Below, in pieces: positions 4,595 through 50,026 of a stretch of 64,000 nucleotides of DNA (positions within the stretch are counted from its first letter, which is position 1; each line of letters opens with the position of its first letter). Below the pieces are notes generated by a model that was not told the DNA's origin, made no database searches, and worked only from the letters and a program-made list of their open reading frames with translations. Location: assembly GCF_040869045.1 (NCBI RefSeq), contig NC_090319.1, positions 279,407,693 to 279,471,692 on the forward strand. Direction: 5' to 3'. This stretch comes from Eurosta solidaginis. Lineage: Eukaryota > Arthropoda > Insecta > Diptera > Tephritidae. Position numbers and translations under genes: made by a program.

Positions 4595-4598
4595 ATAT

Positions 4599-10049: not shown

Positions 10050-11618
10050 GGGGTGTTATACGCCAATGTGTAGGGCCGTGTGTAGAAGTCCACGAAAGTG
10101 GGGAAAGCTTCTGACCGCCATTCACCTGGGAATGGCCAGAGCGATTCTTTTGCATGCGGTTCAAGCAGCTCACTACTGCCGGTCGCTTGCGGCCAAGTAT
10201 CCTCTGGGTAGCCGCTAAACACCCGTTTAGCGGTGAGCTAATGTGAGAAGGCGACAACCTGGCTAGGCCACTCTGACATAATCGGTTTAAGGGCTAGCCG
10301 GGGGGAGATTTCATCGGCAGCGTCTGTACACCTCTAGGTGCGGCTGCAAGCGGGCGTCTGTCTTGGAGCAAGCGGCTCGCTATATAAACGTGCCAAGTAA
10401 TATTTTCACCCCCGCTGAGCGGGTTGTGCGCTGGGCTTGGGACCCGCCACGTAAAACCATACTCCAATGAAATATAACAACAAGCCTCGGATAAATACAC
10501 TCTCTATTGATGACGACCATGGCAAACGTTTGAAGGACAATGAATTGAGGGCATGCACCTGGAACGTCCGCTCCCTGAATGGGATTGGTGCAGATGCCCG
10601 GCTGGTTGATGTCCTCGTCAAAGCAAAATCTGACATCACCGCCATCCAAGAAATGCGTTGGACGAAGCAAGGAAGAAAGAAGATCAAAAATTGTGACATA
10701 TATTGGAGTGGCCATGCGAATAAGCGCAGTTTCGGCGTCGGATTCGTGGTGGGAGAGAGACTTTGTCGCCAAGTGCTGGCGTTCACGCCTGTGGACGAGC
10801 GTCTCGCCGCTATTCGAATAAAAGCAAAATTTTTTAATATATCATTCAACTGCGCCCATGCGCCGACAGAGGAGAAAGACGATGAGGTGAAAGACACTTT
10901 TTATGAACAATTAGAACGTACATACGAGCGCTGCCCCCGTCATGATATAAAAGTCGTGCTTGGCGACTTTAACGCCAGGGTGGGCAAAGAAGGTGTTTTT
11001 GGCCCTACAGTCGGAAAGTTCAGCCTACACAATGAAACTTCTCCTAACGGACTGAGGCTGATTGACTTTGCCGGTGCTCGAAACATGGTCATATCAAGCA
11101 CGAGGTTCATGCATAAAAAGATACATCAAGCTACATGGCTGTCTCCTGATCGAAATACTCGCAATCAGATCGATCACGTTGTGATAGACGGACGGCATGC
11201 CTCCAGTGTTTTAGATGTGCGAACGATCCGAGGACCTAACATCGATTCGGACCATTATCTCGTTGCAGCCAAAATACGCACCCGCCTCAACGCGGCTAAA
11301 AACAAGGAACAAAAAACACAAGGAAAGCTAGACGTCGAAAAGCTTCAATCACAACAGACTGCCAATGATTTCGCAACTCGACTCTCACACCTGCTCTCTG
11401 AGGGCACAACTCATCCTGAAGGAATACAGGAGCAGTGGGAGCATATCTCCAAAGCACTTCATACTGCCGCCGAGGAAAAAATTGGTTACCGGCGGCCACG
11501 AAAAAACAACTGGTATGATGAAGAATGCCGCGTTGCAACCGAAAGAAAAGACGCTGCCTACAGGGCTACGTTAAAAGCGAGCGCGACAAGAGGAGTGTGT
11601 GAACGCTATCGTGAGTTG
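10050..11618 (+). pseudogene. RTE-like LINE, 5' part only, cut by the duplication junction
   Basis: The 5' UTR (10050-10466) contains a strong 9-bp stem with a short loop (ccgctaaac...gtttagcgg, about 10211-10232). The ORF starts at 10467 and carries the complete AP-endonuclease-like domain (TWN, IQEMRW, GDFN, SDH). After codon 384 (11618) the sequence jumps to gag sequence of the LTR element. The frame stays open to 11906, which gives a chimeric 479-codon ORF with no reverse transcriptase. Position 11260 gives Leu after SDHY, where the full copy has Pro. Confidence 0.85.
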
Positions 11619-12717
11619 CCCGGTCACATTGCACGTCATTGCGATCTTGGTCCTAATAGCTTCAACAATGTGGGTGGCCGCAAAGCTGGAGGAGGTGAGC
11701 AAGAGCATGTCATATGTAAGGAAGGAAAACTTGCCCCAGCTATTGAATGTCCTGTGATATCTGTGTCGCAAATTGGAAGAAAATCGAGCAGTTTTGCCGT
11801 CGAAGGAAAGCTGGATGGCAAGGAGCGTGTACTAAATGTAGATACGAGGGCATCTTATTACTTAATCCGATCTGACTTGGTTGCGTACGGTCATTGGCAA
11901 GTATAATCAAGTCCAAGGAGAAGTGATATGTGAGGTATTATTTTGAAAGGTCATGGTTTTACACAAATTCATTGTGGCGGAGATTGTTGATGAAGTCATA
12001 TTGGGAGTGGACTTCTTGGTTGACCATGACATCTAGATCGATATGCAGAGAAGGGTGATGCGTTATGAGAACCAGGATGTGCCACTTAACTTCAGTTTGG
12101 AAAAAGGGTTCAGTAGTAAGCGAGTGCTGGTGGAGGAGATTCGACAGAGACCACGAAAGTCAAGGAAAGTAGATCGAGCAAAGGTTGATGGAACAAATGG
12201 GCCAAAAAAATCAAAACCGAAGGTACCTGTGAGAGAAACACTGGCATTGAAAAGCCCTAACGGACGCACTAAAACGAAGAAAAGAATTTCGCAGAAAGAA
12301 TGCAAGGGTGGTTTCAAGCCAGGACACGCTACTGTTGTGAAGCGTCGGAACGATACTGATTATGCAAAGAGAATCCGTCAAGCGCAAGCTCTACGAAGTA
12401 GTTCATTGGCCAAACAACAGAGTGTGAAGGAACGAACCAGGGTAATGAGTAGTACGATGAGAATAATAATTCGGAAGGTTTCTTGGCGAGAGATTTGGTA
12501 CTGTTATACAACCCTCACCGGCGGAAAGGTGTTCCATCCAAGATTTGGTGCAGTTTGGAAGGCCCGTACAAAGTTGTGAAGAAAATCAGTGATACATCTG
12601 CCGCATACAAACCATTGGGAAACCACGGAGTAGAAGAGTGGTACATTTGGAGATGCCAGCGGCGTTTAGATCGGGAGTTTTGTCTGATCGGGACGTTCAC
12701 ACTTAGGTGGAGGGCAG
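11619..12717 (+). pseudogene. gag/protease and integrase-tail remnant, copy 2
   Basis: This is the duplicate of 3022-4120. Without the 5' LTR and most of gag, it is an orphan 3' piece of the LTR element. Its first 288 bases are read in frame as the C-terminal end of the chimeric ORF that starts in the LINE at 10467. Confidence 0.85.
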
Positions 12718-13191
12718 TGTTACGAATATTAGAAACACTAAGGGGTACTGCCATCTCTAAGCCGATGCTGAGCAGTGATTGTATGCACATCGATAAATCA
12801 ATTATTATGTATCTATATAAACGAATCAATCATTATATCTACACATATGCACGTACACGCAGCGGAGAAGCAACGCACAAACACATGCAGATATCTTATC
12901 TGAGATGCTCCCAAAAGTATGCAATTGTAATTGTGAAAGTGACTAAGTAAATTCTGGAAACGCCTAGAAGATGCAACGAGGAAATGACACAGTATAAAAG
13001 CAGCATCAGTAGAGGCGCGAGAATCAGTTTTGATTAAGCACGCTATTTGTCGCGCAATAGTAGAGTTATTTATTGTGAAGTACTTTAATAAAGGTCATTT
13101 TGCATTATTAAATATTGGAGTTATTTATTCAACAGTGATTCGAACTTAGCAGAAGGTTGCACATAAGAGGATTTGCAGTAAATTCGTTACA
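12718..13191 (+). repeat. LTR, copy 2 of the 3' LTR
   Basis: It is identical by eye to 4121-4594 and is followed by ATAT (13192-13195). It is here because of the tandem duplication, not because of an independent insertion. Confidence 0.85.
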
Positions 13192-13653
13192 ATATTTATA
13201 TTAAAATTAATTAAAACACTTTTTACCAAGAGACAAGAATCGCAGTTTAAATGCCATGCGACTGGCTAATATGGGATCTATTTTGATGCATGTACTAGCT
13301 TTGCTCATGGGTTGTATGACATTATATTACTCGCACGACAGGCATGCTTTACCCAATGTACTAGGCCCCTTAACCCCTTTGAAACTATTAGTTGCCACTC
13401 AGTTTAGTAGGGACGGAATGGCTTGGAACCCGAAACTACATTCGCTAAAACTCGAGAGTATACAGAGATCTAATGCAAATCGAATTTATATTCAATGGGC
13501 GCACAGCTGTTACAAGACTAGGTCGATAAAACCGAAGCATGGGCGAAGGATGGGTATATAGGTTAGGTTGAACAGACCGGTCAATAACCATAAATTGTTT
13601 GCGACCAAGCGGAAACCCCCCAATAAATTACCAGAGCTCAAAAAATACTTGGC

Positions 13654-13886
13654 GCGATTTATCTCCATTTAATATTTAAGCCGGGGTTTTTTTTCAATTT
13701 TTGACGTGCTAGTTTTGAATTTTGCTACAAACTGTCGGGACCTGCATGTTTTATGCTGCCTCTGCAGCAGCTGTGAGGCAGTTGAATTTTCACTGAAAGA
13801 CTTGTCATTTCAGTAATATACTCGGAGAGTTGTAAAACCACTGCCGGGGGCGACCCCGCTTGTAAAAATTTGTTTAATGCCCGCTG
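13654..13886 (-). mobile_element. tRNA-derived SINE fragment, copy 2
   Basis: This is the duplicate of 5057-5289, with no difference seen within it. Confidence 0.7.
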
Positions 13887-14634
13887 GCAACACAACAGAA
13901 ATAACTCTTCCTAAAGGACCTATCTCAAAGACTACCTCGAGATCTCGCAATTCTGCCGCCCTTATTATCCCGAGCCTTGAGTTCGCAAGCATAGGACATC
14001 AAAACAGAACGTGCACAAGAGTGTCTTCCTGCAGGCCGCACTTCCTTCCATTGATCTCATATCTTATCCCACTTAAAGCACCTCCGAGCACGTCGCCAGG
14101 CCAACCAAGGAACTACCCCCATCTCGATATAGCTTCGCATATTTTTACCGTTTGCTAGTTTCTGCTTATAGGTCAAATAGTTAACAAATCTCTCGATTGA
14201 GCATATTGCCAATGTACATGTGGCAACTAAGTATGCAACGACTTGTGATAATTTTTGTTTGCGATTGGAAGGACTTACAAATATTGGCTTCATAGGGTGT
14301 CACTCCGCCGCAGAACACCCTGATTTCAAATCTTCCTTCACCACCTTCGTATCCTTCCAAATTCGAGTGTGGACAGAAATAATTTTTAACCGGACCATGC
14401 TCGTCCATTCTCATAACATTTTCTAGCCAGCGAAACCTTTTATCTTTTATTATATTCTTATCTGCCTAGAGGTCATACCGCTCATCGTTATACCTAGTTC
14501 GACGTTGCTGCTTGTATGACAGCAAGAAGGTAGTTGGTTCTGTATAACCCCTTCTCTGTCGTGAATCCCAAGTACTTGACAGTTCATATGAGTATAGCCT
14601 CTGTCATAGAAGATAAGTAAACTGATTTAGGACG
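13887..14634. repeat. Dispersed unclassified repeat, copy 2
   Basis: This is the duplicate of 5290-6037. It includes the substitution at 13895 (a, against g at 5298). Confidence 0.4.
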
Positions 14635-15275
14635 GGTTTTTCAGTGCGAGTTTAAACTCCAGTTAAAGTTGACTAGAGTTTAACCATGCCACATCGGTCG
14701 CTTAAGCTGACATGAGCAGCAAAATTTTATGTTTTTCGCCAATTACACGGCTCAAGTATCCTTGTGCCAATTACCAATTTGCGCAAGGATTTGCCCGGTG
14801 TGTGCACTGGTTGCGCTATTTGCGCAGAGAACTGTGCTAAAATCAAAACGATTTTGATATTTACGCATGTCTGCAAATATTGCACATGCTTTTTTCTTCG
14901 TGTGTGGTGAATGTGACACAGTTTACCTGTGGTTTCTGATAATATAACATCAGTAATTGTTGCTTAAAAATGTTAATATCGAAGGCGTAAGGACCATCTC
15001 TAGCTTGTAACAGGAATTCACACAAATTCAATAATACATAATAATTTTTTATACAATTAAAACACATGTTTCATTTGTTGTGCTACATTAAAAATGAATA
15101 TTGCGCAGTGTTTTTGAGCCGTGTATGTCAACATTTTTATTTGCACAAATTCCGTCGTTTTATATTTGCGCATGGCTTTTGTGTCATGTAAGGGCCGTCT
15201 TAGCGAACAAAGTGGCAAGATTAAATTCTAGACTCTAGTCAACTTTAACAGAGTTTAAACTCGCACTGAAAAACC
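14635..15275. mobile_element. DNA transposon remnant with long inverted ends, copy 2
   Basis: This is the duplicate of 6038-6678. Confidence 0.65.
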
Positions 15276-16240
15276 AGGCATTCAACTTATGTACGTATGT
15301 ATGTACTGCACAATTCAAATTCTTTTCCGTTGAACATATATACATAACTACATAACTCACCGTTCAATTGCACCCGTTAGTTGCTTTTTCTTTTGACACC
15401 CTCTGCAAAGTTCGAATTTTCAAGTGCGAAGCTAGCATGTACACCACCCTTTTAGCTTCGCTTCCTACCACTTGCACAATCAATAGCAATTGACGGCGGC
15501 GACTTTAAAACATTAAGCAGCGCAAGTATTCTCAACCAGGAAAAACAGCCAAAGTCAATTTTAGCAATTCTGGTTGCCATCCATTTTCACGCAGAAGGAT
15601 TTTATTTGTTACTTACTTTTGATTGTTGTTACTTAACGCAATAAGAGAAGTACATAGATACATTGACATCTTATTTTTTTTACTTACATACTTAATTGTT
15701 ATGTCTTTTCTATGATCAACTTTATTTACATAAAATTTTCATAAAACTAAGAAAGTCTTCACAACAAATGGATAAAGAAAACGGGTTTGTTCTAAATATT
15801 TCGATAAACTAAAAAGAAATATTTACAAATGTGCACTAAAACTAAATAATAATGAATAAACTAGATTTGTGATTAAAGCTAGGCAAAAATATTTTCTCAT
15901 ATACATATCCCTGTCCAATATTTTTGGTTTAAGTTATGACCGGTAGATAAGCGGTGCTCATCATCTTTATAGGGCTAGACTGGAAATGACTACGACGATT
16001 AGAATGCATTTGAATAAAGTTCAAAAAACTGCGTTAATGTTGGAATACTGCAACTGTTATTTAAACGGTATTCCGCATAGACGATACCTGGAAAGAAATG
16101 AAAAAGTAAAAATCTTTGTCTTAACTTGCTTTAAATTTGCATATAGAGATTTGAGTATAGATGAGTCTATCGCGGCTGTTAGTTTGAAAACGTCCTGAAT
16201 CAAAAAATAGTTAAAAAATGTTTTTTATGAACATTCTGAG

Positions 16241-17676
16241 CATGACGCAATAAAACCGGACAGGTGAAATGGAGTCGCATTTGACACAACTCGCCCTCAT
16301 AAATTTAAATGTTGCTTCTTGACTTATCTGCAGCACAAAAATATACATTAATGGCTACCTGCGGCCTGTATTTTCTTTTGTGGGAGGATTTATTTCCTTT
16401 TCCTGAGAGGAAATGTTTTTGGCAACGGAACTAAATGGCTGAGTCTTCAGGGTCCCCCGTAGTCCACGACTAAGGAATATGGAAAGATACCGCTCACGTC
16501 AATGAGATGATTGGCAATCTGGAACAATATCATGAAGTTGCGGTTGAGTATATGGGAGGTTTATTGTACGAAAACTCGGGATTGACGGTATACGGTCCTA
16601 AGACCCACCATTTATTTATGTAAGCCAAGCGTTGAAGTAGGCTCATTGAGCTGAAAAATATACATGTAGCTGCAGATGTTTTACAGCAACGATGCATCAA
16701 CAAATCAGAGTTTATCAATTTTTATATATAAAAAAAACTTACCCACAGCGGGTTAGGGGGTTAGAATATACCCGCGGTAGGTATGCCTGTCGTAAGAGGC
16801 GACTAAAATACCAAATAGATTCAAGGGGTTGTGTAGCGCAACCCTTTAAAATATAGCTTCTTCAACCCAATTGTCAACCTCAACTATCCGTGGCGAATCC
16901 TGTTTCATTAACAGCCGAGGCTCTGGCGACTCCGAACTCCTCATGGATGTAGGGGGTGGGAGGGCGTTATGGCCTAGACGGTTGCATGTGGTCATACGAA
17001 ATCGTTCCTGAGATGGATGGGCATGGTACCGGAACGTACCAGATCTGCATCCGGCAAAGGACCATCAACATCGACAACACCCCAAGGCCTTCGGGGAGTG
17101 TCGTTATCTCTACAACAACAACAGCTAATAAATTTAACTGATGGCAGAATAAATAACTTTGGCTTTTCAGAATTTTATTTTAAACGGCTCTGGCTATCCC
17201 TAGAAACGTTTAGACTAACATGAAATACTCTCAGCCGTGCGATTAAATTCGACAGACATTGTTATGACTTTCTCTATCTATCCACCTGCCTCTCCTCTGT
17301 CTAACCCTCTTCCTCTCTTATTTCCTCTCGCCTATGCATTTTCTAGTTTACCTTATTCGACTCACCATTACCCTTGATCCTCTCCATATTACTCTTGCTT
17401 TTTTTTACTTTTCCGCCTTCGCTCTATTTCCACTACATTTCCTTCCCACATCCTTTATTTTCTCTTTTCTCTCATGGCCCCCGTTTCCAATGTGGAGATA
17501 TATCGATTTTCGCTTTTTCCCACACAATACATTACTAAGGAAATAAAAAAAAGTAGCAAAATAGTACCAAATATTTTCCCTTCATACTACTTTAAAATTC
17601 ATGACCGGATTATGAGGCCCGTCAAATGTTTCTTGCTGTACTAAGGACTTCACCGCACTGGTTTTATTGCGTCATG
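16241..17676. mobile_element. hAT-like non-autonomous element, copy 2
   Basis: This is the duplicate of 7644-9079. Substitutions at 16949 (g for c) and 17483 (g for c) distinguish it. The nested CAA-tailed repeat is at 16740-17127. Confidence 0.6.
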
Positions 17677-17849
17677 ATTCTCAGATATATCCGATCTTCT
17701 TTAAGAACTACAAAAAGACGAGTTTCAATCATTTCCCGATGTATGGCATTTTTGAAAGTGTTGCAAAATAGAGTATTATTTGAATAGCATTCCTTCACTA
17801 CTTTCTTAGATACGAAGTTTTTCGAGTCGTCGATATATCAAATACTTAC

Positions 17850-18021
17850 CAGTATTATGCCAGTGATAGAAAGCGGCAAGAATAAAAAGGTGCCACCAAT
17901 TATGTGAATGTCCTACATAATCCACTTTACCGGTGAGCCAGCGCTCCGGTATTTTCGCCGCATAAATGACAAAGGCGAGAGCGCACCAGCCATACATGAC
18001 AATTATACGAGGCACCATTAG
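17850..18021 (-). CDS. PAQR-family receptor, penultimate-type exon, copy 2
   Basis: This is the duplicate of 9253-9424 and is identical by eye, with the same acceptor and GTAAGT donor. It encodes the segment with the H-x3-H zinc motif. In transcript order it lies before the copy-1 block. It ends in phase 1, while the next available exon (9596-9784) starts in phase 0, so splicing straight to that exon breaks the frame. Confidence 0.83.
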
Positions 18022-18192
18022 CTAGAGAAGGAAAAAGTTACATGTGAAGATAAATAACACTCTACTTTGGTAGGATAATTCATTGACCAGCAAATAGAGA
18101 AAGAACGAGCTACATAGGTAAAGAATTGGCCTAACTATATGACCTTGGTTTAAAAAATATAGATTTTTGCACAAAATAATTTTTGGACCTAC

Positions 18193-18381
18193 CCACACTA
18201 ATTCGTTTTCAAATCCACCCATCACATAGGTCCAATGAGCCAATGGTATGATACCATACGCTGCCCATAACACCAGCACGGAGATTTTTGCATCCAAAGA
18301 CACATTCAATTTCGGTATTTGCACCAAGATCGCCAGACCGAACATACCCAAAGCAATTACAGAATAAATTGTACGAAGAGT
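18193..18381 (-). CDS. PAQR-family receptor, internal exon, copy 2
   Basis: This is the duplicate of 9596-9784 (63 codons, phase 0 to 0). Its upstream neighbour in the transcript is exon 25104-25388, about 6.7 kb away, with the intact LINE in the intron. Because this copy retains the original right-hand context, it is the copy nearest to the upstream exons. Confidence 0.83.
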
Positions 18382-18634
18382 CTGAAAAGGAATTAAAAGA
18401 GTTTATTTGGGAATAAAAATAGAATTATCCAAATATTTTTATTCAGGTTATGTTCATGTTATGTTGAGTGACATCTACAGGGGTAGAGGAAGCTCACTTG
18501 CACAGCATTAAGATCTGTTATGACTCCGGACTGAAATACTTTTTCATAGTTCTGGCAAAGTCCGAACAGTCAAGCATGAAATAAATCGATGAAGCTCTAT
18601 GCAGATGCAGAAGGAAGGATTTTTTTGGTACATT

Positions 18635-18646
18635 AAGATATAGCAT
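18635..18646. repeat. Left target-site duplication of the intact LINE
   Basis: AAGATATAGCAT matches 22086-22097 exactly, on either side of the element. Confidence 0.88.
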
Positions 18647-21600
18647 GGGGTGTTATACGCCAATGTGTAGGGCCGTGTGTAGAAGTCCACGAAAGTGGGG
18701 AAAGCTTCTGACCGCCATTCACCTGGGAATGGCCAGAGCGATTCTTTTGCATGCGGTTCAAGCAGCTCACTACTGCCGGTCGCTTGCGGCCAAGTATCCT
18801 CTGGGTAGCCGCTAAACACCCGTTTAGCGGTGAGCTAATGTGAGAAGGCGACAACCTGGCTAGGCCACTCTGACATAATCGGTTTAAGGGCTAGCCGGGG
18901 GGAGATTTCATCGGCAGCGTCTGTACACCTCTAGGTGCGGCTGCAAGCGGGCGTCTGTCTTGGAGCAAGCGGCTCGCTATATAAACGTGCCAAGTAATAT
19001 TTTCACCCCCGCTGAGCGGGTTGTGCGCTGGGCTTGGGACCCGCCACGTAAAACCATACTCCAATGAAATATAACAACAAGCCTCGGATAAATACACTCT
19101 CTATTGATGACGACCATGGCAAACGTTTGAAGGACAATGAATTGAGGGCATGCACCTGGAACGTCCGCTCCCTGAATGGGATTGGTGCAGATGCCCGGCT
19201 GGTTGATGTCCTCGTCAAAGCAAAATCTGACATCACCGCCATCCAAGAAATGCGTTGGACGAAGCAAGGAAGAAAGAAGATCAAAAATTGTGACATATAT
19301 TGGAGTGGCCATGCGAATAAGCGCAGTTTCGGCGTCGGATTCGTGGTGGGAGAGAGACTTTGTCGCCAAGTGCTGGCGTTCACGCCTGTGGACGAGCGTC
19401 TCGCCGCTATTCGAATAAAAGCAAAATTTTTTAATATATCATTCAACTGCGCCCATGCGCCGACAGAGGAGAAAGACGATGAGGTGAAAGACACTTTTTA
19501 TGAACAATTAGAACGTACATACGAGCGCTGCCCCCGTCATGATATAAAAGTCGTGCTTGGCGACTTTAACGCCAGGGTGGGCAAAGAAGGTGTTTTTGGC
19601 CCTACAGTCGGAAAGTTCAGCCTACACAATGAAACTTCTCCTAACGGACTGAGGCTGATTGACTTTGCCGGTGCTCGAAACATGGTCATATCAAGCACGA
19701 GGTTCATGCATAAAAAGATACATCAAGCTACATGGCTGTCTCCTGATCGAAATACTCGCAATCAGATCGATCACGTTGTGATAGACGGACGGCATGCCTC
19801 CAGTGTTTTAGATGTGCGAACGATCCGAGGACCTAACATCGATTCGGACCATTATCCCGTTGCAGCCAAAATACGCACCCGCCTCAACGCGGCTAAAAAC
19901 AAGGAACAAAAAACACAAGGAAAGCTAGACGTCGAAAAGCTTCAATCACAACAGACTGCCAATGATTTCGCAACTCGACTCTCACACCTGCTCTCTGAGG
20001 GCACAACTCATCCTGAAGGAATACAGGAGCAGTGGGAGCATATCTCCAAAGCACTTCATACTGCCGCCGAGGAAAAAATTGGTTACCGGCGGCCACGAAA
20101 AAACAACTGGTATGATGAAGAATGCCGCGTTGCAACCGAAAGAAAAGACGCTGCCTACAGGGCTACGTTAAAAGCGAGCGCGACAAGAGGAGTGTGTGAA
20201 CGCTATCGTGAGTTGAAAAGGGAAGCGAGACGCCTTTTCAGGAAGAAAAAAGCAGAAGCAGAAAGGCGTGAGTGCGAGGAGCTTGAGCTGCTAGCCACCA
20301 GGAATAACGCCCGAAAATTCTACCAAAAAATACGGCGACAGACGGAAGGTTTTAAGACCGGGGCAAACTCCTGTAGGAATGAAAACGGCGACCTTGTAAC
20401 TGATGTCCAGAGAGTGCTTAGATTATGGAGGGAACACTTCTCTGCTCTCCTAAATGGAGGCAGCAATTCACCGCGCAGAGATGAAGAACCCGATCCCGCA
20501 ATCGATGATGATGGAATATATGTCCCCCCGCCCGATTATGACGAAGTTAGAATAGCAATAACCAGATTGAAAAACAACAAGGCCGTGGGCGCTGATGGAT
20601 TGCCTGCGGAGCTATTCAAGTTCGGCGGCGAGGAGTTGGTAAGGCGCATGCAGCAGCTTCTTAGCAAAATATGGGCGGACGAAAGCATGCCCGACGGTTG
20701 GAATCTAAGTGTTCTTTGCCCAGTCCACAAGAAGGGGGATACTGCAAAATGCACCAACTATCGTGGAATCAGCCTTCTTAATATCGCATATAAGGTCCTT
20801 TCAAGTGTATTGTGCGAAAGATTGAAGCCCACCGTGAACCGGCTGATTGGACCTTATCAGTGCGGCTTCAGACCTGGTAAATCTACCATCGACCAGATTT
20901 TCACAATGCGCCAAATCTTGGAAAAAACCCGTGAAAAGAGAATCGACACACATCACCTCTTCGTCGACTTTAAAGCCGCCTTCGACAGCACGAAAAGGAG
21001 CTGCCTATATGCCGCTATGTCTGAATTTGGTTTCCCCGCAAAACTTATACGGCTGTGCAAAATGACGTTAAGCAACACCATCAGCTCAGTCAGAATTGGG
21101 AAGGACCTCTCCGAGCCGTTCGAAACTAAACGAGGTTTCAGACAGGGTGACCCTCTATCGTGCGATTTCTTTAATTTGATGCTGGAGAAAATTATACTAG
21201 CTGCAGAACTTAACCGCACTGGAATAATATACTATAAAAGCGTGCAATTACTGGCATATGCTGATGACATTGATATCATCGGCCTAAACACCCGCGCTGT
21301 TAGTTCTGCTTACTCCAAGCTGGAAAAAGAAGCGGTAAAGATGGGTTTGATGGTGAATGAGGACAAAACGAAGTACCTGCTGTCATCGAGCAAAGAGTCA
21401 GCGCATATGCGCCTTGGCAACCACGCTACTGTTGGCAGCCATAATTTCGAAATAGTAAAAGACTTCGTTTATTTGGGAACCAGCATCAACATTAGCAACA
21501 ACATCAGCACTGAAATCCAGCGAAGAATCAATCTTGCCAATAAATGCTACTTTGGACTAGGTAGGCAATTGAAAAGTAAAGTCCTCTCTCGGCGAACGAA

Positions 21601-22085
21601 AATCATACTCTACAAGTCACTTATCGTACCCGTCCTGCTATATGGGGCAGAAGCATGGACCATGACAACAGCAGATGAAGCGGCTTTGGGAGTGTTCGAG
21701 AGAAAAGTTCTTCGAAAGATTTATGGACCTCTACGCGTTGGCGATGGCGAGTACCGAAGAAGATTTAATGATGAGCTATACGAGCTATACGCAGACATCA
21801 ACATAGTCCAGCGAATTACAACGCAGCGGCTGCGCTGGCTAGGCCATGTTATGCGAATGAAAGATGATGCTCCGGCCAAGAAAGTGTTTCTATCGGAACC
21901 CGCCTATGGAAGCAGAGGTAGAGGGCGGCCCCCACTCCGTTGGAAGGACCAGGTGGAACACGATTTAAACTCCCTTGGTGTGACCAATTGGCGCCGGTTG
22001 GCGGAGCGAAGGAGCGACTGGCGCGCCTTGTTGGACGGTCATAACCGTTTAGACGGTTAAGCGCCAATTAAGTAAGTAAGTAAGT
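18647..22085 (+). mobile_element. Full-length RTE-like non-LTR retrotransposon
   Basis: The element is about 3.44 kb: a 417-bp 5' UTR, one long ORF, and a 3' end made of a short hairpin (aaccgt-ttag-acggtt, about 22043-22058) and a (TAAG)n tail (22071-22088, partly overlapping the target duplication). Short tandem-repeat tails and a single ORF with endonuclease and reverse transcriptase fit the RTE group. The 12-bp target duplication shows it is complete at both ends. It lies in the same orientation as the window and opposite to the PAQR gene, in one of its introns. Confidence 0.85.
19064..22060 (+). CDS. RTE-like endonuclease/reverse transcriptase, intact ORF
   Basis: The 998-codon ORF would nick target DNA and copy element RNA at the nick (target-primed reverse transcription). 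Residues 30-265 form an AP-endonuclease-like domain: TWN (31-33), Glu62 in IQEMRW, GDFN (166-169), IDH (235-237) and SDH (261-263). Residues about 500-770 form the reverse transcriptase: YRGISLLN (566-573), QCGFRPGKST (599-608), Asp635 in FVDF, GFRQGDPLS (691-699) and YADD (732-735). The C-terminal region has LYGAEAW, RLRWLGHV and GRPPLRWKDQV, common to this group in insects, where such ORFs are often labelled craniofacial development protein 2-like. No stop or frameshift is present. Pro265 right after SDHY is Leu in copy 1. I chose the ATG at 19064, the first in the frame after a GC-rich 5' UTR. Confidence 0.88.
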   Translation: MKYNNKPRINTLSIDDDHGKRLKDNELRACTWNVRSLNGIGADARLVDVLVKAKSDITAIQEMRWTKQGRKKIKNCDIYWSGHANKRSFGVGFVVGERLCRQVLAFTPVDERLAAIRIKAKFFNISFNCAHAPTEEKDDEVKDTFYEQLERTYERCPRHDIKVVLGDFNARVGKEGVFGPTVGKFSLHNETSPNGLRLIDFAGARNMVISSTRFMHKKIHQATWLSPDRNTRNQIDHVVIDGRHASSVLDVRTIRGPNIDSDHYPVAAKIRTRLNAAKNKEQKTQGKLDVEKLQSQQTANDFATRLSHLLSEGTTHPEGIQEQWEHISKALHTAAEEKIGYRRPRKNNWYDEECRVATERKDAAYRATLKASATRGVCERYRELKREARRLFRKKKAEAERRECEELELLATRNNARKFYQKIRRQTEGFKTGANSCRNENGDLVTDVQRVLRLWREHFSALLNGGSNSPRRDEEPDPAIDDDGIYVPPPDYDEVRIAITRLKNNKAVGADGLPAELFKFGGEELVRRMQQLLSKIWADESMPDGWNLSVLCPVHKKGDTAKCTNYRGISLLNIAYKVLSSVLCERLKPTVNRLIGPYQCGFRPGKSTIDQIFTMRQILEKTREKRIDTHHLFVDFKAAFDSTKRSCLYAAMSEFGFPAKLIRLCKMTLSNTISSVRIGKDLSEPFETKRGFRQGDPLSCDFFNLMLEKIILAAELNRTGIIYYKSVQLLAYADDIDIIGLNTRAVSSAYSKLEKEAVKMGLMVNEDKTKYLLSSSKESAHMRLGNHATVGSHNFEIVKDFVYLGTSINISNNISTEIQRRINLANKCYFGLGRQLKSKVLSRRTKIILYKSLIVPVLLYGAEAWTMTTADEAALGVFERKVLRKIYGPLRVGDGEYRRRFNDELYELYADINIVQRITTQRLRWLGHVMRMKDDAPAKKVFLSEPAYGSRGRGRPPLRWKDQVEHDLNSLGVTNWRRLAERRSDWRALLDGHNRLDG

Positions 22086-30356: not shown

Positions 30357-31512
30357 CAAAGTTTTTTCCAAAATTATATTTTGCGTCAAAAAATCAATCC
30401 AATCACCATGTTTCATCCCTTTTTTTGTATTTGGTATAGAATTATGGCATTTTTTCCCCCTTTTTGCGAAATTTTCTATACTGAAAAAGTGGACGTGGTC
30501 ATAGTCGGATTTCGCCCATTTTTAATACCAAGATGAAGTGAGTTCAGATGAGTACGTGAACTAAGTTTAGTAAAGATATATCGATTTTTGCTTAAGTTAT
30601 CGTGTTAACGGCCAAGAGGAAGGAAAGACGGTCGACTGTGTATAAAAACTGGGCGTAGCTTCAACCGATTTCGCCCATTTTCACAGAAAACAGTTACCGG
30701 CATAGAAGCTTATCCCTTACCTTACTTCACAAGGATTGGTAAATTTTTGTTCGACTTATGGCATTAAAAGTATTCTAGACAAATTAAATGAAAAAGGGCG
30801 GCCACGCCCATTTTGAAATTTTCTTTTATTTTTGTATTTTGTTGCACCATATCATTACTGGAGTTGAATGTTGACAAAATTTACTTATATACTGTAAAGA
30901 TATTCAATTTTTTGTTAAAATTTGAGTGTGGGCGTGTTTGTCATCCGATTTTGCTAATTTTTATTTCGCACACATATAGTATTAGGAGTAATGTTTCTGC
31001 CAAATTTCATCAAGATATCTTCTACGACTGCCAAATTACAGCTTGCAAAACGTTTAAATCACCTTCTTTTATAAGTGGGCGGTGCCGCGCCCATTGTCCA
31101 AAATTTTACTAATTTTCTATTCTGCGTCATAAGGTCAACCCACCTACCAAGTTTCATCACTTTATTCGTCTTTGGTAATGAATTATCGCACTTTTTCGGT
31201 TTTTCGAAGTTTTCGATATCGAAAAAGTGGGCGTGGTTGTAGTCCGATTTCGTTCATTTTAAATAGCGATCTGAGATGGTGCCCAGGAACTTACATACCA
31301 AATTTCTTTAAGATACCTCAAAATTTACTCAAGTTATCGTGTTTACAGACGGACGGACGGACGGGCATGGCTAAATGAATTTCTTTTTCCGGCCAGATCA
31401 TTTTGAAATATAGAAGTCTATATCTATCTCGTTTAGTTTATGCCGTTACGAATTACCATTATGCGAACAAAATTAATATACTCTGCGAGCTCTGCTCAGC
31501 TGAGTATAAAAA
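30357..31512 (-). repeat. Complex repeat family, copy without minisatellite
   Basis: The body is reversed relative to the copy at 36374, and ends at the ctcagctgagtat word (31495-31507). It includes 'gacggacggacggacggg' near 31345 and several 'aaaagtgggcgtgg' blocks. No coding capacity is evident. Confidence 0.75.
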
Positions 31513-32120
31513 AATATCAATTAAAACTGTTAAAATAACAGATTTTCGCCAACGTTATAATAACAGTAAATAAAGGCTGTTGATATGACAAAAATTTCTG
31601 TTCCAGAATAGTGATAAGAACGAACGATTGAGCGCCGTGGGTGTAATGGCGGTCTCTTTTCTGAAAACAATATCGTCCTGTTGGTTCTTTTTAACTCTCT
31701 CTTAAGTTTGTGCATTCCTTTCAAAAAATATTTCCTTTTGAATAGGAAAAGGGTCACCATTACCTAAAAATTCAGCATTTCTTGCATAGCACCAGGTGAC
31801 TTGGTTCAAAAGTTAGAGTTTAAGAGTGCAATATTTTTTCAAGATAATAAAACTCCACAAGTTTCTCTTCAAAATAAGCGGATGCCTTTGCATAAATTTG
31901 ACAGTTGTTTGCTGTTGAAAATAAATATTAATTACTTGAAACCAACAGTTTCTCTTCTGTTGAAATTACTAAATGTGATCTCTTGCGATTGCTCGAAATC
32001 TAAGTTGTCAAACCGGAGCACTTTGCTAAATCCAACACAAAAGCCGGCTAAGAAAACCGAAACGTCTGAAAGTCCTACCCTTACATAAATAAATTTGAAC
32101 TTCCACTACATTTTACTTAC
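31513..32120. other. Intron sequence with a faint foldback remnant
   Basis: Words such as 'gtttctcttctgttgaaat' near 31950 resemble the foldback family at 51474-52260. The 95-codon frame at 31801-32088 is not convincing. Confidence 0.35.
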
Positions 32121-35857: not shown

Positions 35858-35862
35858 CGGTG
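35858..35862. repeat. Left target-site duplication CGGTG
   Basis: CGGTG lies directly left of the CACAGTG terminus and is repeated at 41655-41659. GC-rich 5-bp duplications are typical of Transib. Confidence 0.9.
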
Positions 35863-35902
35863 CACAGTGTTTCGTGTAGAACAAGCTAGCTGGACAAAAA
35901 CA
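35863..35902 (+). promoter_or_regulatory. Left transposon terminus with RSS-like heptamer and nonamer
   Basis: CACAGTG (35863-35869), a 24-bp spacer, then ACAAAAACA (35894-35902). The V(D)J signal is CACAGTG, 12 or 23 bp, ACAAAAACC, so the heptamer is exact and the nonamer has one mismatch. In the transposon this is the presumed transposase binding site. Confidence 0.75.
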
Positions 35903-36118
35903 AAGTTCTTATTCCAAGAAAAGTGTAATGAGAAATGAAAGAAAACAAACAAAATAACGGGATTTTTGCTTTTTTTTTGATATTTTTGCTCATATATATT
36001 GATTAATTGAAGTAAGAAGGCAGGAGTGGCCGTAAAATGCATTGATTAATTTGCAAAATTCTTGTTGAATATTAAGATTCATATTTCTTTTAAGTGAACA
36101 CTTTTACATAATTTTTTT

Positions 36119-36138
36119 GATGGATTCTAAGCTCGAAG
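36119..36138 (+). other. Possible transposase first exon
   Basis: An ATG followed by five codons (MDSKLE) runs into GTAAGT, a good splice donor, in the expected place near the left end. An acceptor-like 'aaatttag' occurs at about 36240-36249, but the following frame stops soon. This is speculative. Confidence 0.3.
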
Positions 36139-37779
36139 GTAAGTAAAATTTTTTAATAGTAATGCTTTCACAATAAGAGTATTTTCAATATATTTAACAT
36201 TCCGTTATTAAGAAGAAAAGGTATTTTTTCCCTATATTTTTAAATTTAGGGACAAAAAAGTTACATAAATCCGCGGACATCCGGGCTTAATTTTATATAT
36301 GTTATAGTCGCAAGTATTCTCTAATAGTCGAAAGAAAAAACCATTGCGAATTCTTTGCACATCTATTTTTAATTTTTTTATACTCAGTTGAGCAGAGCTC
36401 ACAGAGTATATTAAGTTTGATTGGATAACGGTTGGTTGTACATATATAAAGGAATCGAGATAGATATAGACTTCCATATATCAAAATAATCAGGATCGAA
36501 AAAAAATTTGATTGAGCCATGTCCGTCCGTCCGTCCGTTAACACGATAACTTGAGTAAATTTTGAGCTATCTTGATGAAATTTGGTATGTAGATTCCTGG
36601 GCACTCATCTCAGATCGCTATTTAAAATGAACGATATCGGACTATAACGACGCCCACTTTTTCGATATCGAAAATTTCGAAAAACCGAAAAAATGCGATA
36701 ATTCATTGCCAAAGGCAATTAAAGCGATGAAACTTGGCAGATGGGTTGACGTTATGACGCAGAATAGAAAATTAGTAAGATTTTGGACAATGGGCGTGGC
36801 ACCGCCCACTTTTACAAGAAGGTAATTTAAAAGTTTTGCAAGCTGTAATTTGGCAGTCGTTGAAGATATCATGATGAAATTTGGCAGGAACGCTGCTACT
36901 ATTATTATATATGTGCTAAATAAAAATTAGCAAAATTGGATGAAGAACACGCCCACTTTTTAAAAAAAAAAATTTTTTAATTCAAATTTTAACAAAAAAT
37001 TTAATATCTTTGCTGTATATAAGTAAATTAAGTCAAAATTCAACTCCTGTAATGATATGATGCAACAAAATACAAAAATAAAAGAAAATTTCAAAATGGG
37101 CGTGGCTCCCGCCATTTTCATTTAGTTTGTCTAGAATTCTTTTAATGCCATAAGTCGAACAAAAATTTACCAATCCTTCTCAAATTTGGTAGGTACATAG
37201 ATTCTATGACGGTAACTGTTCTCTGTGAAAATGGCCGAAATCGGTGGAAGTCACGCCCAGTTTTTATACACAGTCCACCGTCTGTCCTTCCTCTTGGCCG
37301 CTAACACAATAACTTGAGCAAAAACCGATATATCTTTACTAAACTTAGCCCACCTACTTATCTGAACTCACTTTATCTCGGTATAAAAAATAGCCGAAAT
37401 CCGACCATAACCACGCCCACTTTATCGATATCGAAAATTACGAAAAATGAAAAAAATGCCATAATTCTATACCAAATACGAAAAAAAGGATGAAACATGG
37501 TAACTGGATTGGTTTATTGACGCAAAATATAACTTTGGAAAAAATTTTGTAAAATGGGTGTGACACCTACCATATTAAGTAGTAGAAAATGAAAAAGTTC
37601 TACAAGGCAAAATCAACAGCCCTTGGAATCTTGGCAGGAATACTGTTAGTGGTATTGCATATATAAATAAATTAGCAGTACCCGACAGATGATTTTCTGG
37701 ATCACCTGGTCCACATTTTGGTCGATATCGCGAGAACACCTTCACATATACATCTAAGGGCCACTCGCTTTTAAAACCC

Positions 37780-39930
37780 TCATTAATACCTTTAATTTTA
37801 TATCCATATCGTACAAACACATTCTAGAGTCACCCCTGGCCCACCCTAATGGCGATATCTCGAAAAGGCGTCCACCTATAGACCTAATGCCCACTCCCTC
37901 TTAAAATGCTCAGTAACACCTTTCGTTTGATACCCATATCGTACAAACATTCTAGAGTCACCTCTGGCCCACCCTAATGGCGATATCTCGAAAAGGCGTC
38001 CACCTATAGACCTAATGTCCACTCCCTCTTAAAATGCTCAGTAACACCTTTCGTTTGATACCCATATCGTACAAACATTCTAGAGTCACCCCTGGCCCAC
38101 CCTATTGGCGATGTCTCGAAAAGGCCACCTATAGACCTAATGCCCACTCCCTCTTAAAATGCTCAGTAACACATTTCGTTTGATACCCATATCGTACAAA
38201 CATTCTAGAGTCCCCCTGGCCCACCCTAATGGCGATATCTCGAAAAGGCGTCCGTCCACCTATAGACCTAATGCCCACTCCCTCTTAAAATGCTCAGTCA
38301 CACCTTTCGTTTGATACCCATATCGTACAAACATTCTAGAGTCACCCTTGGTCCACCTTTATGGCGATATCTCGAAAAGGCGTCCACCTATAGACCTAAT
38401 GCCCACTCCCTCTTAAAATGCTCAGTAACACCTTTCGTTTGATACCCATATCGTACAAACATTCTAGAGTCACCCTTGGTCCACCTTTATGGCGATATCT
38501 CGAAAAGGCGTCCACATATAGAACTAAGGATTACTCCCTTTTAAAATACTCATTACCACCTTTCATTTGATACCCATATCGTACAAACACATTCTAGAGT
38601 CACCCCTGGCCCACCCTAATGGCGATATCTCGAAAAGGCGTCCACCTATAGACCTAATGCCCACTCCCTCTTAAAATGCTCAGTAACACCTTTCGTTTGA
38701 TACCCATATCGCACAAACATTATAGAGTCACCCCTGGCCCACACTAATGGCGATATCTCGAAAAGACGTCCACCTATAGACCTAATGCCCACTCCCTCTT
38801 AAAATGCTCAGTAACACCTTTCGTTTGATACCCATATCGTACAAACACATTCTAGAGTCACCCCTGGCCCACCCTAATGACGATATCTCGAAAAGGCGTC
38901 CACTTATAGACCTAATGCCCACTCCCTCTTAAAATGCTCAGTAACACCTTTCGTTTGATACCCATATCGTACAAACATTCTAGAGTCACCCTTGGTCCAC
39001 CTTTATGGCGATATATCGAAAAGGCGTCCACCTATAGAACTAAGGATTACTCCCTTTTAAGATACTCATTACCATCTTTCATTTGATACCCATATCATAC
39101 AAACAAATTCTAGAGTCACCCCTGGCCCACCCTAATGGCGACATTTCGAAAAGGCGTCCACCTATAGACCTATTGCCCACTCCCTCTTAAAATGCTCAGT
39201 AACACTTTTCGTTTTATACCCATATCGTACAAACATTCTAGAGTCACCCCTGGCCCACCCTAATAGCAATATCTCGAAAAGGCGTCCACCTATAGACCTA
39301 ATGCCCACTCCCTCTTAAAATGCTCAGTAACACCTTTCATTTGATTCCCATATCGTACAAACACATTCTAGAGACACCCCTGGTCCACCTTTATGGCGAT
39401 ATCTCGAAACGGCGGCCACCTATGGACTAAGGATCACTCCTTTTCAAAATACTCATTAACAGCTTTCCTTTGATACCCATATCGTACAAACATATTCTAG
39501 AGTCACCCCTGGTCCACCTTTATGGCGATTTCTCGAAAAGGCGTTCACCTATAGAACTAAAGCCCATTCCCTTTTAATATACTCATTACCACCTTTCATT
39601 TGATACCCATATCCTACAAACACATTCTAGAGTCACCCCTGGTCCACCTTAATGGCGATATCTCGAAAGGGCGTCCACCGATAGACCTAAGGCCCACTCC
39701 CTCTTAAAATGCTCAGTAACACCTTTCATTTGATACCCATATCGTACAAACAAATTCTAGAGTCAGCCCTGGTCCACCTTTATGGCGATATTCCTAAATG
39801 GCGTCCATCCATAGAACTATGGCCTACTCTCTCTTAAAATACTCTTTAATACCTTCCATTTGATACACATGTCATACAACCACATTCCAAGGTTACCCTA
39901 GGTTCATTTTCCTACATGGTGATTTTCCTT
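37780..39930. repeat. Minisatellite, about 17 units of 125-131 bp
   Basis: Each unit includes 'gatacccatatcgtacaaac', 'attctagagtcacccctgg', 'atggcgatatctcgaaaagg' and 'gtccacctatagac'. Two unit types exist. One has 'cctaatgcccactccctc' with 'gctcagtaacacc'; the other has 'aactaaggattactccc' with 'actcattaccacc'. The second type recurs at about 38481 and 38997, 516 bp or four units apart. It is not a CRISPR array: there are no short repeats with unique spacers. Confidence 0.9.
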
Positions 39931-39965
39931 ATTTTGTCTCCATAGCTCTCAACTGAGTATGTAAT

Positions 39966-39983
39966 GTTCGGTTACACCCGAAC
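39966..39983 (+). other. Terminal hairpin of complex repeat
   Basis: GTTCGG - TTACAC - CCGAAC forms a perfect 6-bp stem with a 6-base loop, 17 bases before the repeat's end. Matching hairpins occur at 413-430 (inverted) and 49992-50009. Confidence 0.7.
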
Positions 39984-40206
39984 TTAGCCTTCCTTACTTG
40001 TTTTTTTTGTAGATTTAGTTATCTCTACATATCAAATAGGATGTATGTACGTACCAGCTCCGACGAGATATTTTAACCTTTAAAGCTGATCTACAAACGG
40101 CAAAACCAATTCCCTGGTACAGGGAACAAACACGTAGCCATAAAACATACAAAAATAAACGCGCAAGGTCAACAAGATCACACCAAAAGCAAAAAGGCGA
40201 AGATCA

Positions 40207-40911
40207 TTGACTTCAACCTGCCACAACCTACCGCACCAGTCACCAAGGCATAAAAACAGGTACATACAATGGATTGATGAAGATAGACCAAAACCAGGTT
40301 TCGGCAATACCAATGACGGCAACACTGCTCGTAGGTTTTTCGAAAATTCTGAGGCTAGTGCTGAGATTACGGGATTGGATGTAACGCTCATCAAAAGATT
40401 CGACACTCTCCTTCGCGCATTTGCATCTGGGTTCAATATAAATATCCAAAAATTTTAAAAATTTGCGGTCGAGACTAAAAAACTATACATAGATCTTTAT
40501 CCATGGTTTAATATGCCTGTTACATTTCATAAATTCTTAGTGCATAGTACTGATATTATAAAATCAGCACTTTTACCTATTGGTCAACTTTCCGAGGAAG
40601 CACAGGAAGCCCGTAACAAAGATTTGAGACGATTCAGGGCTGATAACACACAAAAGCAGTCGCGTGAAGCCACGAATAGAGATCTTATGAATATGTTGCT
40701 TATAACATCGGATCCTTTAGTTAACAGTTTTAGGGAGATACCTAAGAAAAAATTTAAAAGTCTGACTTCAGAAGTCTTAAATTTACTGTCCCCCGATAAT
40801 GTTGAGGAGTCAATAAATACCCCAGTTGTTTCAAGCTTTCACAGTAGTGTTGCTGATGTTCATGACTATTCCACAAGTGACTCATCCAATGAAAGTGATG
40901 ATAGCGAATAA
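40207..40911 (+). pseudogene. Transib transposase, C-terminal part, one nonsense change
   Basis: One frame runs from 40207 to 40911, broken only by TAA at 40456-40458. It encodes RPKPGFGNTNDGNTARRFF, then ITGLDVTLIKRF, LYIDLYPWFNMP, HKFLVHSTDIIKSALLPIG, LSEEAQEARNKDLRRFR and LLITSDPLV. It ends in an acidic tail (about STSDSSNESDDSE). The EARNK block with its Glu (codon 40606-40608) corresponds to RAG1 Glu962 (NEASGNK), the third catalytic residue. The two catalytic Asp residues lie upstream in the family and are absent here. The protein would have cut and pasted the element. RAG1 and Transib share this RNase H-fold domain. Identification is from remembered family motifs. Confidence 0.8.
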
Positions 40912-41186
40912 TAACATAATTATAAAAGATAACCTACCCTATAACTTTTTGTTGGATCAGGTTTTATTCAATTTAAATCTATTGTCTTTTCTACTTTGTA
41001 TGATACTTTACTTTTAAGTTTTTGTAATAAGTAATTTTCACATAATTAATTCAATTATTTACATTATTATTATTATTATTGTAATTCACTTTTACATTCC
41101 TGACTGGTACTATAAAATAATTCTGTAAAAAATGTAGTGCCAGGATAAATACTCAAATAAATACAAAATATGTATGTACATATGTA
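40912..41186. other. Transib 3' non-coding region
   Basis: This AT-rich tail follows the transposase stop, with a short (tta/att) run near 41062-41080. No signal is recognised. Confidence 0.4.
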
Positions 41187-41484
41187 CAGTCACTCACATA
41201 AATAAGTAGACACCCCTTTTTGGATAATTCTTACAATTTTCGCTTTCGCAAATTTATTTTAACTAATTTCCCATAAGAAAATTTGTCACGATCTATAACA
41301 AAAACTAAATTATATTTAAAAATTTCGACGAATTTTCATAAAAAATTTTAATTTTTTTTCCGAATTTTTAGAATTTTTTAGAGTATTGAGATTTGTATTC
41401 CATTCAATTTAAGTACAATAAAGTAATATTCTTAAGTCCTTTAAATTTTTTTGGATCTATGTCACTTATTCACATGAGTTACTG
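41187..41484. mobile_element. Tc1/mariner-like MITE inside the Transib element
   Basis: The 298-bp element has ends CAGTCACTCACATAAATAAGT and, inverted, CAGTAACTCATGTGAATAAGT. It is flanked by TA at 41185-41186 and 41485-41486. No ORF is present. TA flanks and CAGT ends fit Tc1/mariner MITEs. Confidence 0.75.
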
Positions 41485-41614
41485 TATATGAAATAAGCAA
41501 ATGTATGCATATGAAGTAAAATTTTGGAAAAAAAAATAAAAAAAGAACATATGGCTGAAAAAAATGACGTAGTTGTAAAAAATGACTGCATATGAAACGG
41601 AAAATCTCATAAAA

Positions 41615-41654
41615 TAATTTTGTCCAGCTAGCTTGTTCTACACGAAACACTGTG
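41615..41654 (-). promoter_or_regulatory. Right transposon terminus with RSS-like heptamer
   Basis: Reading inward on the minus strand: CACAGTG (41648-41654), the same 24-bp spacer, then ACAAAATTA (41615-41623), a weaker nonamer match (6 of 9). Confidence 0.72.
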
Positions 41655-41659
41655 CGGTG
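41655..41659. repeat. Right target-site duplication CGGTG
   Basis: It is identical to 35858-35862. The empty site at 42061-42109 has a single CGGTG at this point. Confidence 0.9.
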
Positions 41660-47763: not shown

Positions 47764-50026
47764 TTTTTATACTCAGCTGAGCAAAGTTTACAGAGTATAT
47801 TAATTTTTTTGACATAACGTTAGCTTGCAACGGCATAAGCTTATCGAGTTAAACATAAACATCCATAATAATATGTTTCTACGATATCGGTATCAAATTA
47901 AAGGTATTAATGAGGGCTTTAAAAGGGAGTGGCCCTTAGTTGTATATGTGAAGGCGTTTTCGAGATATCGACCAAAATGTGGACCAGGGTGATCCATAAT
48001 ATCATCTGTCCGGTACCGCTAATTTATTTATATATATAATACCACGAAAAATATTCCTACCATGATTCCAAGGGCTTTTGATTTCGCCCTGCAAAACTTT
48101 TTCATTTTCTTCTACTTAATATGGTAGGTGTCACACCCATTTTACAAAGATTTTTCCAAAGTTATATTTTGCGTCAAAAAACCAATCCAATCACCATGTT
48201 TCATCCCTTTGTTCGTATTTGGAACAGAATTATGAAATTTGCATATCGAAAAAGTGGGCGTGGTCATAGTCGGATTTCGCCCATTTTTTATACCAAGATA
48301 AAGTTCAGATAAGTACGTGAACTAAGTTTAGTAAAGATATATCGATTTTTGCTCAATTTATCGTGTTAGCGGCCAAGAGGAAGGACAGACGGTCGACTGT
48401 GTATAAAAACTGGGCGTGGCTTCAACCGATTTCGCCCATTTTCACAGAAAACAGTAACCGGCATAGAAGCTTAGCCCTTACCAAATTTCACAAGGATTGG
48501 TAAATTTGTGTTCGACTTATGGCATTAAAAGTATTCTAGACAAATTTAATGAAAAAGAGCCACGCCCATTTTGAAAATTTCTTTTATTTTTGTATTTTGT
48601 TGCACCATATCATTACTGGAGTTTAATGTTGACATCATTTACCTTTATACTGTAAAGATATTGAATTTTTTGTTAAAATTTGACTTTCAAATTTTTTTTT
48701 TTTTTAAGTGGGCATATTCGTTATCCTATTTTGCAAATTTTTATTTAGCACACATATGGTAATAGGAGTAATATCTTCAACGACTACCAAATTACAGCTT
48801 GCAAAACTTTTAACTTACCTTCTTTTAAAAGTGGGTGGTGCCACGCCCATTGTCCAAAATTTTACTAATTTTCTATTTTGCGTCATAAGGTCAACACACC
48901 TACCAAGTTTCATCGCTTTATCCGTCTTTCGTAATGAATTATCGCACTTTTTCGGTTTTTCGAAATTTTCGATATCGAAAAAGTGGGCATGGTTACATGA
49001 TTGTAAATAATGCCGCTACAATAACAAAATTGTATGTATAGTTTTGAAAAACAACCCTCTTATTTAAATTTTTGTACAATTTTAAAAAAGGGCATGGAAC
49101 CACCCTTTTTCTGACAAAATCAACACTTCAAATACTAATAGCCATAAATCAAAAACGGTTTAAGTTGTCATCACGAAACTGCATAAACTCATTACCCTTA
49201 TTTTGAGGAATTATTCTGGAGAAAAGAACGAAATCGGTAAAGGACCACGCCTACTTTTCTATAAAATGTTTTAAAAATGATCTTAGGCGACTTAAATAGA
49301 CAATATCATTGCAAATAACATTTTATCAATGCTATTTTACTGGTACAGTGTTTTTATAACAAGAAAATTAATATGTAAGCAATTTTTAAAAATGGTAGCG
49401 TCGTACCTCTTTTGACAAAGCATTTTCTCTTGTTTCAGGAGCCATAACTCGAAGACCAGTTGATGTACTTGACAAAATTCGGTACATATATTTTTCTTAT
49501 AACCTTAAACAACTTTTTAATAAAGAAGAAATATTTTTAATAAAAGAAAAATAAATGTAAGGCGCGATAACCTCCGAAGAGATTTTAGGCCGAGCTTCTC
49601 TTCCAATTTGCATCGTGCTCCTTTTTTTATTTCCTACAAATTGGCGGGATGGGGCCTACTCCTTTTATGGTCCGAACGACATCTGCAAGGCAGATGAGTT
49701 TTCACTGAAAGCTTGTCATGACAGAAATACACTCGGAGTGCTTGCCAACCACTGCCGAGGGGCGAACCCGATAAGAAAATGTTTCTTCTAATTGAAAAAC
49801 CTTGTTTCTGAAGGTTTGATGTTGCTTTGCCCGGGGCGTGAACCCAGGATCTTCGGTGTGGTAGTCGTAGCACGCTACCATCACACCACGGCGGCCGCAA
49901 ATGGGAAAACTGATTCATGACTATGCCCCCTTTTGATAATATTTGAGGGTAAATGAACTAGATGATAAAAGCTCTCAACTGAGTATTTAATGTTAGGTAA
50001 CACCCTAATTTAGACACCCTTACTTG
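47764..50026. repeat. Complex repeat family, rearranged copy with SINE insertion
   Basis: It begins with tactcagctgag (47770), but the body that follows (one reversed minisatellite unit, then body blocks to 49000) is inverted relative to the 36374 copy. It ends with ctcaactgagtat and a terminal hairpin (49992-50009) before 'cccttacttg'. It is therefore a mosaic of pieces, not a simple copy. Confidence 0.65.
49555..49898 (-). mobile_element. tRNA-derived SINE, near full length, minus strand
   Basis: The reverse complement begins 'gcggccgccgtggtgtgatgg', has 'gggttcacgccccgggcaaa', and ends 'ttatcgcgccttacattt'. It is inserted inside the complex repeat. 'aaatg' on both sides may be the target duplication. 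Confidence 0.85.

Follow-up and report, generated by a model that had tools for sequence, protein, structure and literature searches.

A dead, non-autonomous copy of an abundant Transib family with CACAGTG ends in the goldenrod gall fly, Eurosta solidaginis

What does it mean when both ends of a fly transposon begin with the exact heptamer of the V(D)J recombination signal sequence (RSS)? The question is raised by an element at positions 35863-41654 of a 64-kb stretch of DNA (the window, to which all coordinates below refer unless a copy is named) on contig C1 of Eurosta solidaginis, the goldenrod gall fly, a tephritid, whose genome we searched as an assembly of 1.91 Gb in 569 contigs. An earlier note had described the element as a Transib-type, RAG1-related transposon and had put it forward as an example from nature of how V(D)J recombination signals originated. 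The assignment to Transib is upheld by sequence, by the predicted fold of a relative's transposase, and by the structure of the ends over 55 copies, while the claim about origins holds up poorly. Together with the mechanism proposed below, we regard it as very nearly certain that the window element is a non-autonomous copy of an abundant E. solidaginis Transib family. This family is a new tephritid member of Transib that is ordinary in kind, and its unusually high copy number is what makes it notable.

The element is bounded by 37-bp terminal inverted repeats that are identical at 35863-35899 (forward strand) and 41618-41654 (reverse strand), each starting with the heptamer CACAGTG (35863-35869 and 41648-41654, respectively), and it is flanked by the target-site duplication CGGTG (35858-35862 and 41655-41659), all as the earlier note had described them. 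The inverted-repeat search itself returns 38 bp rather than the true 37, because the left duplication ends in G and the right one starts with C. In the window, CACAGTG and CACTGTG occur once each, at the two element ends, and the 37-bp end has 1,724 exact occurrences in the genome (882 forward and 842 reverse) against none for the same pattern read backwards, so the paired ends are not a product of chance. The exact inner 30 bp are kept by 1,922 genomic ends, and 1,724 of these (89.7%) also carry an exact CACAGTG. Judging from these counts, the heptamer has been retained about as often as expected if a single ancestral sequence had decayed at 1.6% (0.984^7 = 89.3%), in a comparison where selecting exact inner ends favours copies that have decayed little.

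To describe the family we used 55 non-redundant complete copies from among the fetched loci and the window, those whose ends and flanks could be read by script. They are not a random sample, having been chosen from the sequences that best matched the window's left end and protein piece. The heptamer is exact in 52 of the 55 left ends and in 52 of the 55 right ends, so that its presence at both ends, as the earlier note had it, extends family-wide to inverted ends that start with CAC. The 5-bp duplications are GC-rich, as in Transib elements generally, with all five bases identical in 44 of the 55 copies, four of five in nine, and fewer in two. Their consensus is C, G or A, any base, C or T, and G, and CRNYG is found in 27 of the 44. 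By length, 49 of the 55 copies (counting the window copy with its insert cut out) have a form of about 2.16 kb; one of its junctions is shared by 47 and the other by all 49, and the mean divergence of these copies from their majority sequence is 1.6% (range 0.8-2.8%). Among the first 100 ends listed on C1 there are 30 facing pairs, which span 2.1-2.4 kb (15 pairs), 2.7-2.9 kb (four), 3.1 kb (two), 3.6-3.8 kb (six), and 4.2, 6.6 and 9.1 kb (one each). In one fetched locus (L041, around its position 3315), two Transib ends adjoin over a single shared 5-bp duplication (CACTGTG-CGTCG-CACAGTG), which looks like the product of one copy inserting into the duplication of the other.

An apparently intact transposase frame was found in one of the three long copies that were read. 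This copy (L039, within locus G000:C1:164876500-164886400) is 3,326 bp long, has CACAGTG at both ends and a duplication matching at four of five bases, and contains an unbroken open frame of 763 residues with the D-D-E catalytic residues. A 710-residue part of this frame matches the solved HzTransib transposase with an E-value of 3.2e-115, while no other solved chain is matched at E 0.1 or better, and it narrowly passes the 25-bit cut-off of the Pfam RAG1 family at 26.2 bits. Its residues D300, D402, and E610 align with D126, D225, and E436 of HzTransib (constant offset 17), the reported catalytic triad of that enzyme (PMC6941560), and its predicted structure, an RNase H fold, supports the relation to Transib and RAG1. 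A 420-residue E. solidaginis protein is 93% identical to this frame over 57% of its length. The second long copy (L040), read for its ends and not its frame, is 3,781 bp long with the duplication CAACG on both sides, and the third (L079+L080) is 3,802 bp long with a perfect CATTG duplication and the heptamer CACACTG at one end. A 350-residue piece containing both aspartates was scored at 116 places out of 5,293 first-look candidates; these are 86-96% identical (the query's own place excepted), many contain stops, and five combine a match free of stops with an open frame of at least 650 residues (763, 741, 703, 698, and 657). A second Transib-like protein of E. solidaginis (P0041), also on contig C1, is 52% identical over 607 aligned columns.

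The window element itself is a dead deletion derivative of about 2.16 kb that is split by an insert of about 3.6 kb, two features that go beyond the earlier note. An uninterrupted copy (L042, 2,164 bp) matches element bases 1-520 and 4140-5792, and it is in turn an internal deletion of the 3.8-kb form, its bases 1-778 corresponding to 1-782 of L079 and its bases 779-2164 to 2431-3802. We considered capture of foreign sequence as the source of about 280 bp in the short element and dropped the idea, as these bases belong to the 3.8-kb form. What is left of the transposase is a C-terminal remnant on the forward strand at 40276-40911, whose best match is residues 311-480 of HzTransib (6pqn_A, E 1.1e-48); the solved RAG1 and RAG1L chains are matched only at E of about 0.3-1.4, and the Pfam RAG1 score of 18.7 bits lies under the 25-bit cut-off. 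The regions with both aspartates are gone, and only the catalytic glutamate and the C-terminus are retained, the codon equivalent to E436 of HzTransib lying at 40606-40608 (forward strand) according to the alignments. The block LSEEAQEARNK can therefore be identified, from the alignment of the D/D/E residues to the HzTransib triad, as the catalytic glutamate block. The block that the earlier note had picked out is indeed present (LSEEAQEARNKDLRRFR, 40588-40638), but a TAA at 40456-40458 interrupts the frame said to contain it (40207-40911). A possible 5' exon, ATGGATTCTAAGCTCGAAG, lies at 36120-36138 (forward strand) and is followed by GTAAGT, a candidate splice site judging by its letters; the same sequence is found in L039 and L079.

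By analogy with HzTransib and RAG, an L039-type enzyme would pair two ends that each consist of CACAGTG, 24 bp, and an A-rich block, and would nick 5' of CACAGTG; the flanks would be closed as hairpins and the transposon ends left blunt. Insertion of these ends, staggered by 5 bp, at a target resembling C-R-N-Y-G would produce the 5-bp duplications. The duplications, the target bias, the ends, the spread of the deletion derivative, the catalytic triad in one relative, and the predicted fold are the observed parts of this scheme. The 2.16-kb derivative would have arisen when about 1.65 kb, including both catalytic aspartates, was lost from a 3.8-kb element, and it was probably copied in large numbers in trans, because its junctions are shared, its ends are intact, and its duplications are present. 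The later landing of a Helentron-like element would then have stretched the window copy to 5.8 kb.

The closest solved relative to which we could align the family is HzTransib of Helicoverpa zea (PDB 6pqn, 6pqr, 6pqx, and 6pqy), whose ends are reported to resemble the RSS heptamer and hardly the nonamer (PMC8289069). With the Transib families of Drosophila and Anopheles the common features are 5-bp duplications and RSS-like ends, some of them described as identical to the RSS (PMC8355894, PMC6941560). Autonomous Transib elements are stated to occur typically singly or as a few copies (PMC4411706); in contrast, the Eurosta family has its 116 scored two-aspartate places and 1,724 exact ends. By these counts the Eurosta genome appears to stand out in the number of its transposase-bearing places, whether or not it does so in activity. 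Eurosta solidaginis is not named among the literature matches listed, which cannot show that nothing is in print, and the sole listed match with both Transib and Tephritidae concerns hAT elements of Drosophila willistoni (PMC8961557). The family, which spread fairly recently, combines an RSS-like left end with at least one transposase frame that appears intact and with nearly two thousand ends in good preservation. It thereby offers a practical system, in a fly, for studying how much older than V(D)J recombination the recognition of heptamer and nonamer is.

The resemblance to recombination signals is stronger at one end than at the other. At the left end, CACAGTG is followed after 24 bp by ACAAAAACA (35894-35902, forward strand), which matches the nonamer ACAAAAACC at eight of nine positions; of 20,000 sequences simulated with a Markov model, with six spacers allowed, about 0.1% reached at least eight matches. 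The right end has the same 24-bp spacer and ACAAAATTA (41615-41623, reverse strand), with six of nine matches, and this resemblance is weak because at least six matches arise in about 7% of the simulations. Judged by its letters, the left end looks like a 23-type signal. A 12/23 pair would have its nonamer 12 bp from the heptamer at one end and 23 bp at the other, and as both spacers here are 24 bp there is no such asymmetry. Over 54 of the 55 left ends (the remaining one was dropped for an excess of mismatches), the substitution rate is 0.8% for the heptamer, 0.8-1.1% for the spacer, and 1.4-1.9% for the nonamer-like block. The rate for whole elements is 1.6%, and in these small numbers we saw no extra constraint on the nonamer-like block.

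The N-terminal part of the L039-type transposase appears equivalent to the nonamer-binding domain (NBD) of RAG1, and an NBD-equivalent part has been reported for Transib elements (PMC9435367). The solved HzTransib chain has no counterpart of it, since its alignment starts at L039 residue 196. In comparison with vertebrate RAG1 and its RSS, the Eurosta family has an identical heptamer, a left nonamer-like block, a probable NBD-equivalent part of three helices, and an RNase H fold, and it differs in its 24-bp spacer at both ends, in that no RAG2-like frame was found in L039, and in making a 5-bp target duplication as a transposon. We raise as a tentative proposal, which we would not expect to hold, that the left end is a working 23-type signal, such that the fly enzyme would read the heptamer and nonamer-like block through its NBD and vertebrate RAG1/2 would recognise and cut it too, even though the fly and vertebrate proteins diverged long before there were vertebrates. 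If true, this would be a living two-part-signal system at high copy number outside vertebrates.

Several points weigh against the interpretation given so far. The cleavage and transposition described above are predicted by analogy, and the divergence among copies is understated because the 55 copies are best matches to the window copy. The intact frame is known from one copy, L039, whose start codon is a putative assignment; since this copy is missing about 440 bp that L040 and L079 have in common in their 5' part, the 5' end of the gene and the start codon of the family are uncertain. Near the C-terminus, the frame of L079+L080 is shifted and departs from the others. In the long copies the left nonamer-like block matches at eight of nine positions in L040 and at seven of nine in L039 and L079. 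As for the NBD-like part, its hhalign comparison with the RAG1 domain is weak, with a probability of 1.3% and a score of 12.8 versus a maximum of 12.2 in 100 shuffles, and the structure matches that reach it have root-mean-square deviations of 6-8. The tool flags this region of the predicted model, which was folded only within the longer protein, as barely tested.

The family might preserve an ancestral signal, CACAGTG and the nonamer-like block having come down from the ancestor that RAG signals share with Transib ends; we think this improbable. In favour of such descent, the left end combines heptamer, a spacer of 23+1 bp, and nonamer in a consistent arrangement, and the transposase seems to have an NBD-equivalent part, as reported for Transib elements (PMC9435367). 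On the other hand, the good nonamer is found at the left end only and drops to seven of nine matches in two of the three long copies, the spacers do not form a 12/23 pair, and the block is conserved no better than the rest of the end. Positions 4 and 5 of the heptamer also vary among relatives, ProtoRAG having CACTATG (PMC8289069) where the Eurosta family has CACAGTG, so a match at these two bases is cheap; if CAC and TG are shared, it would arise by chance about once in 16 at equal base frequencies. RSS-identical motifs in Transib ends have already been reported, as we know from statements in two later papers that do not give the letters of the ends. One states that the heptamer and nonamer of some ends agree exactly with the consensus, the spacer between them varying in length (PMC6941560), and the other that the motifs of some asymmetric Drosophila and Anopheles families are identical to the canonical ones, describing 12/23-like asymmetric families as well as symmetric families with spacers of 20-22 bp (PMC8355894). 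As an example of how V(D)J signals originated the element is accordingly weak, since such motifs were known, the spacers are 24 bp, the heptamer match is cheap, and the copy is dead and interrupted. Both papers cite Kapitonov and Jurka (2005), who reportedly described the Transib families of Drosophila and Anopheles. The family alone leaves the accepted account of Transib and RAG unchanged; it is useful for testing ideas on the origin of V(D)J signals, a question that it does not settle by itself.

Repressor activity is known for truncated transposases from other families, and the C-terminal fragment might have been retained in such a role, which we consider quite unlikely. In favour of it, the match has no internal stop at 94 of 150 scored places (indels not counted). 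Against this, changes in the remnant fall almost evenly over codon positions (98, 102, and 106 in 54 of the 55 copies, L040 being left out), nonsynonymous relative to synonymous changes reach 0.87 of the value expected with no selection, 17 of the 54 copies have an in-frame stop caused by substitution, and the first 99 residues of the window-copy frame have no in-frame methionine. The even changes and the stops largely refute a repressor, and from its pattern of substitution over the 54 copies the fragment looks like a passenger evolving neutrally.

It is very unlikely that the element is instead a RAG-like transposon of the RAGL/ProtoRAG kind, nearer to the V(D)J recombinase than Transib is and with a RAG2-like partner. 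The heptamer of ProtoRAG is CACTATG, and the convergent RAG2-like gene of RAGL/ProtoRAG was not found in the L039 element, the one copy examined for it, among frames of at least 120 residues and with no profile search made. The only other frame of that size there, of 149 residues, is antisense inside the transposase gene, and the roughly 1.0 kb outside that gene leaves hardly any room for a RAG2-like gene. A single protein without such a partner is what Transib elements have. Lastly, abundant repeats surround the element and could invite assembly error, yet an artefact is next to inconceivable given that 44 of the 55 copies lie at separate places with their own perfectly matching duplications and that the nested insert has an uninterrupted counterpart.

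The nested insert occupies 36380-40000 within a run of T, which makes its exact borders ambiguous; the uninterrupted copy reads AATTTTTTTGTAG at this site. It carries subterminal inverted repeats of 13 bp (at 36380-36392 and 39948-39960), a short palindrome on the 3' side at 39966-39983 (a 6-bp stem seen by eye, which a repeat search with a 7-bp minimum omits), and a tandem array at 37743-39887 with a period of 130 bp and 16.6 copies, or alternatively a period of 258 bp and 8.5 copies from 37705. HINE/DINE-1 elements are described as non-autonomous Helentrons with subterminal inverted repeats, a 3' palindrome, and a T-rich target (PMC4067079), and the insert shares with them its 13-bp repeats, palindrome, tandem repeats, and T-run insertion. 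We liken it to these elements by architecture alone, having set it beside the named families by their descriptions. Further pieces related to the insert are present in the window at 30357-31515, 47870-48995, and 49974-50026, with stretches that are 85-89% identical, the last of these (at about 49974-50026) being a second short match to the 3' end of the insert.

Elsewhere in the window, positions 3021-11618 are repeated in tandem as 11618-20215 (8,598 bp, 99.94% identity), which is either a recent duplication or an effect of assembly. Inside this duplication (3021-20215) there are, as judged by eye, frames with gag-like zinc knuckles and portions of a frame from a non-LTR retroelement. A frame of 1,002 residues at 19052-22060 resembles, again by eye, the endonuclease and reverse transcriptase of non-LTR retroelements, and a truncated copy of it lies at 10455-11906.

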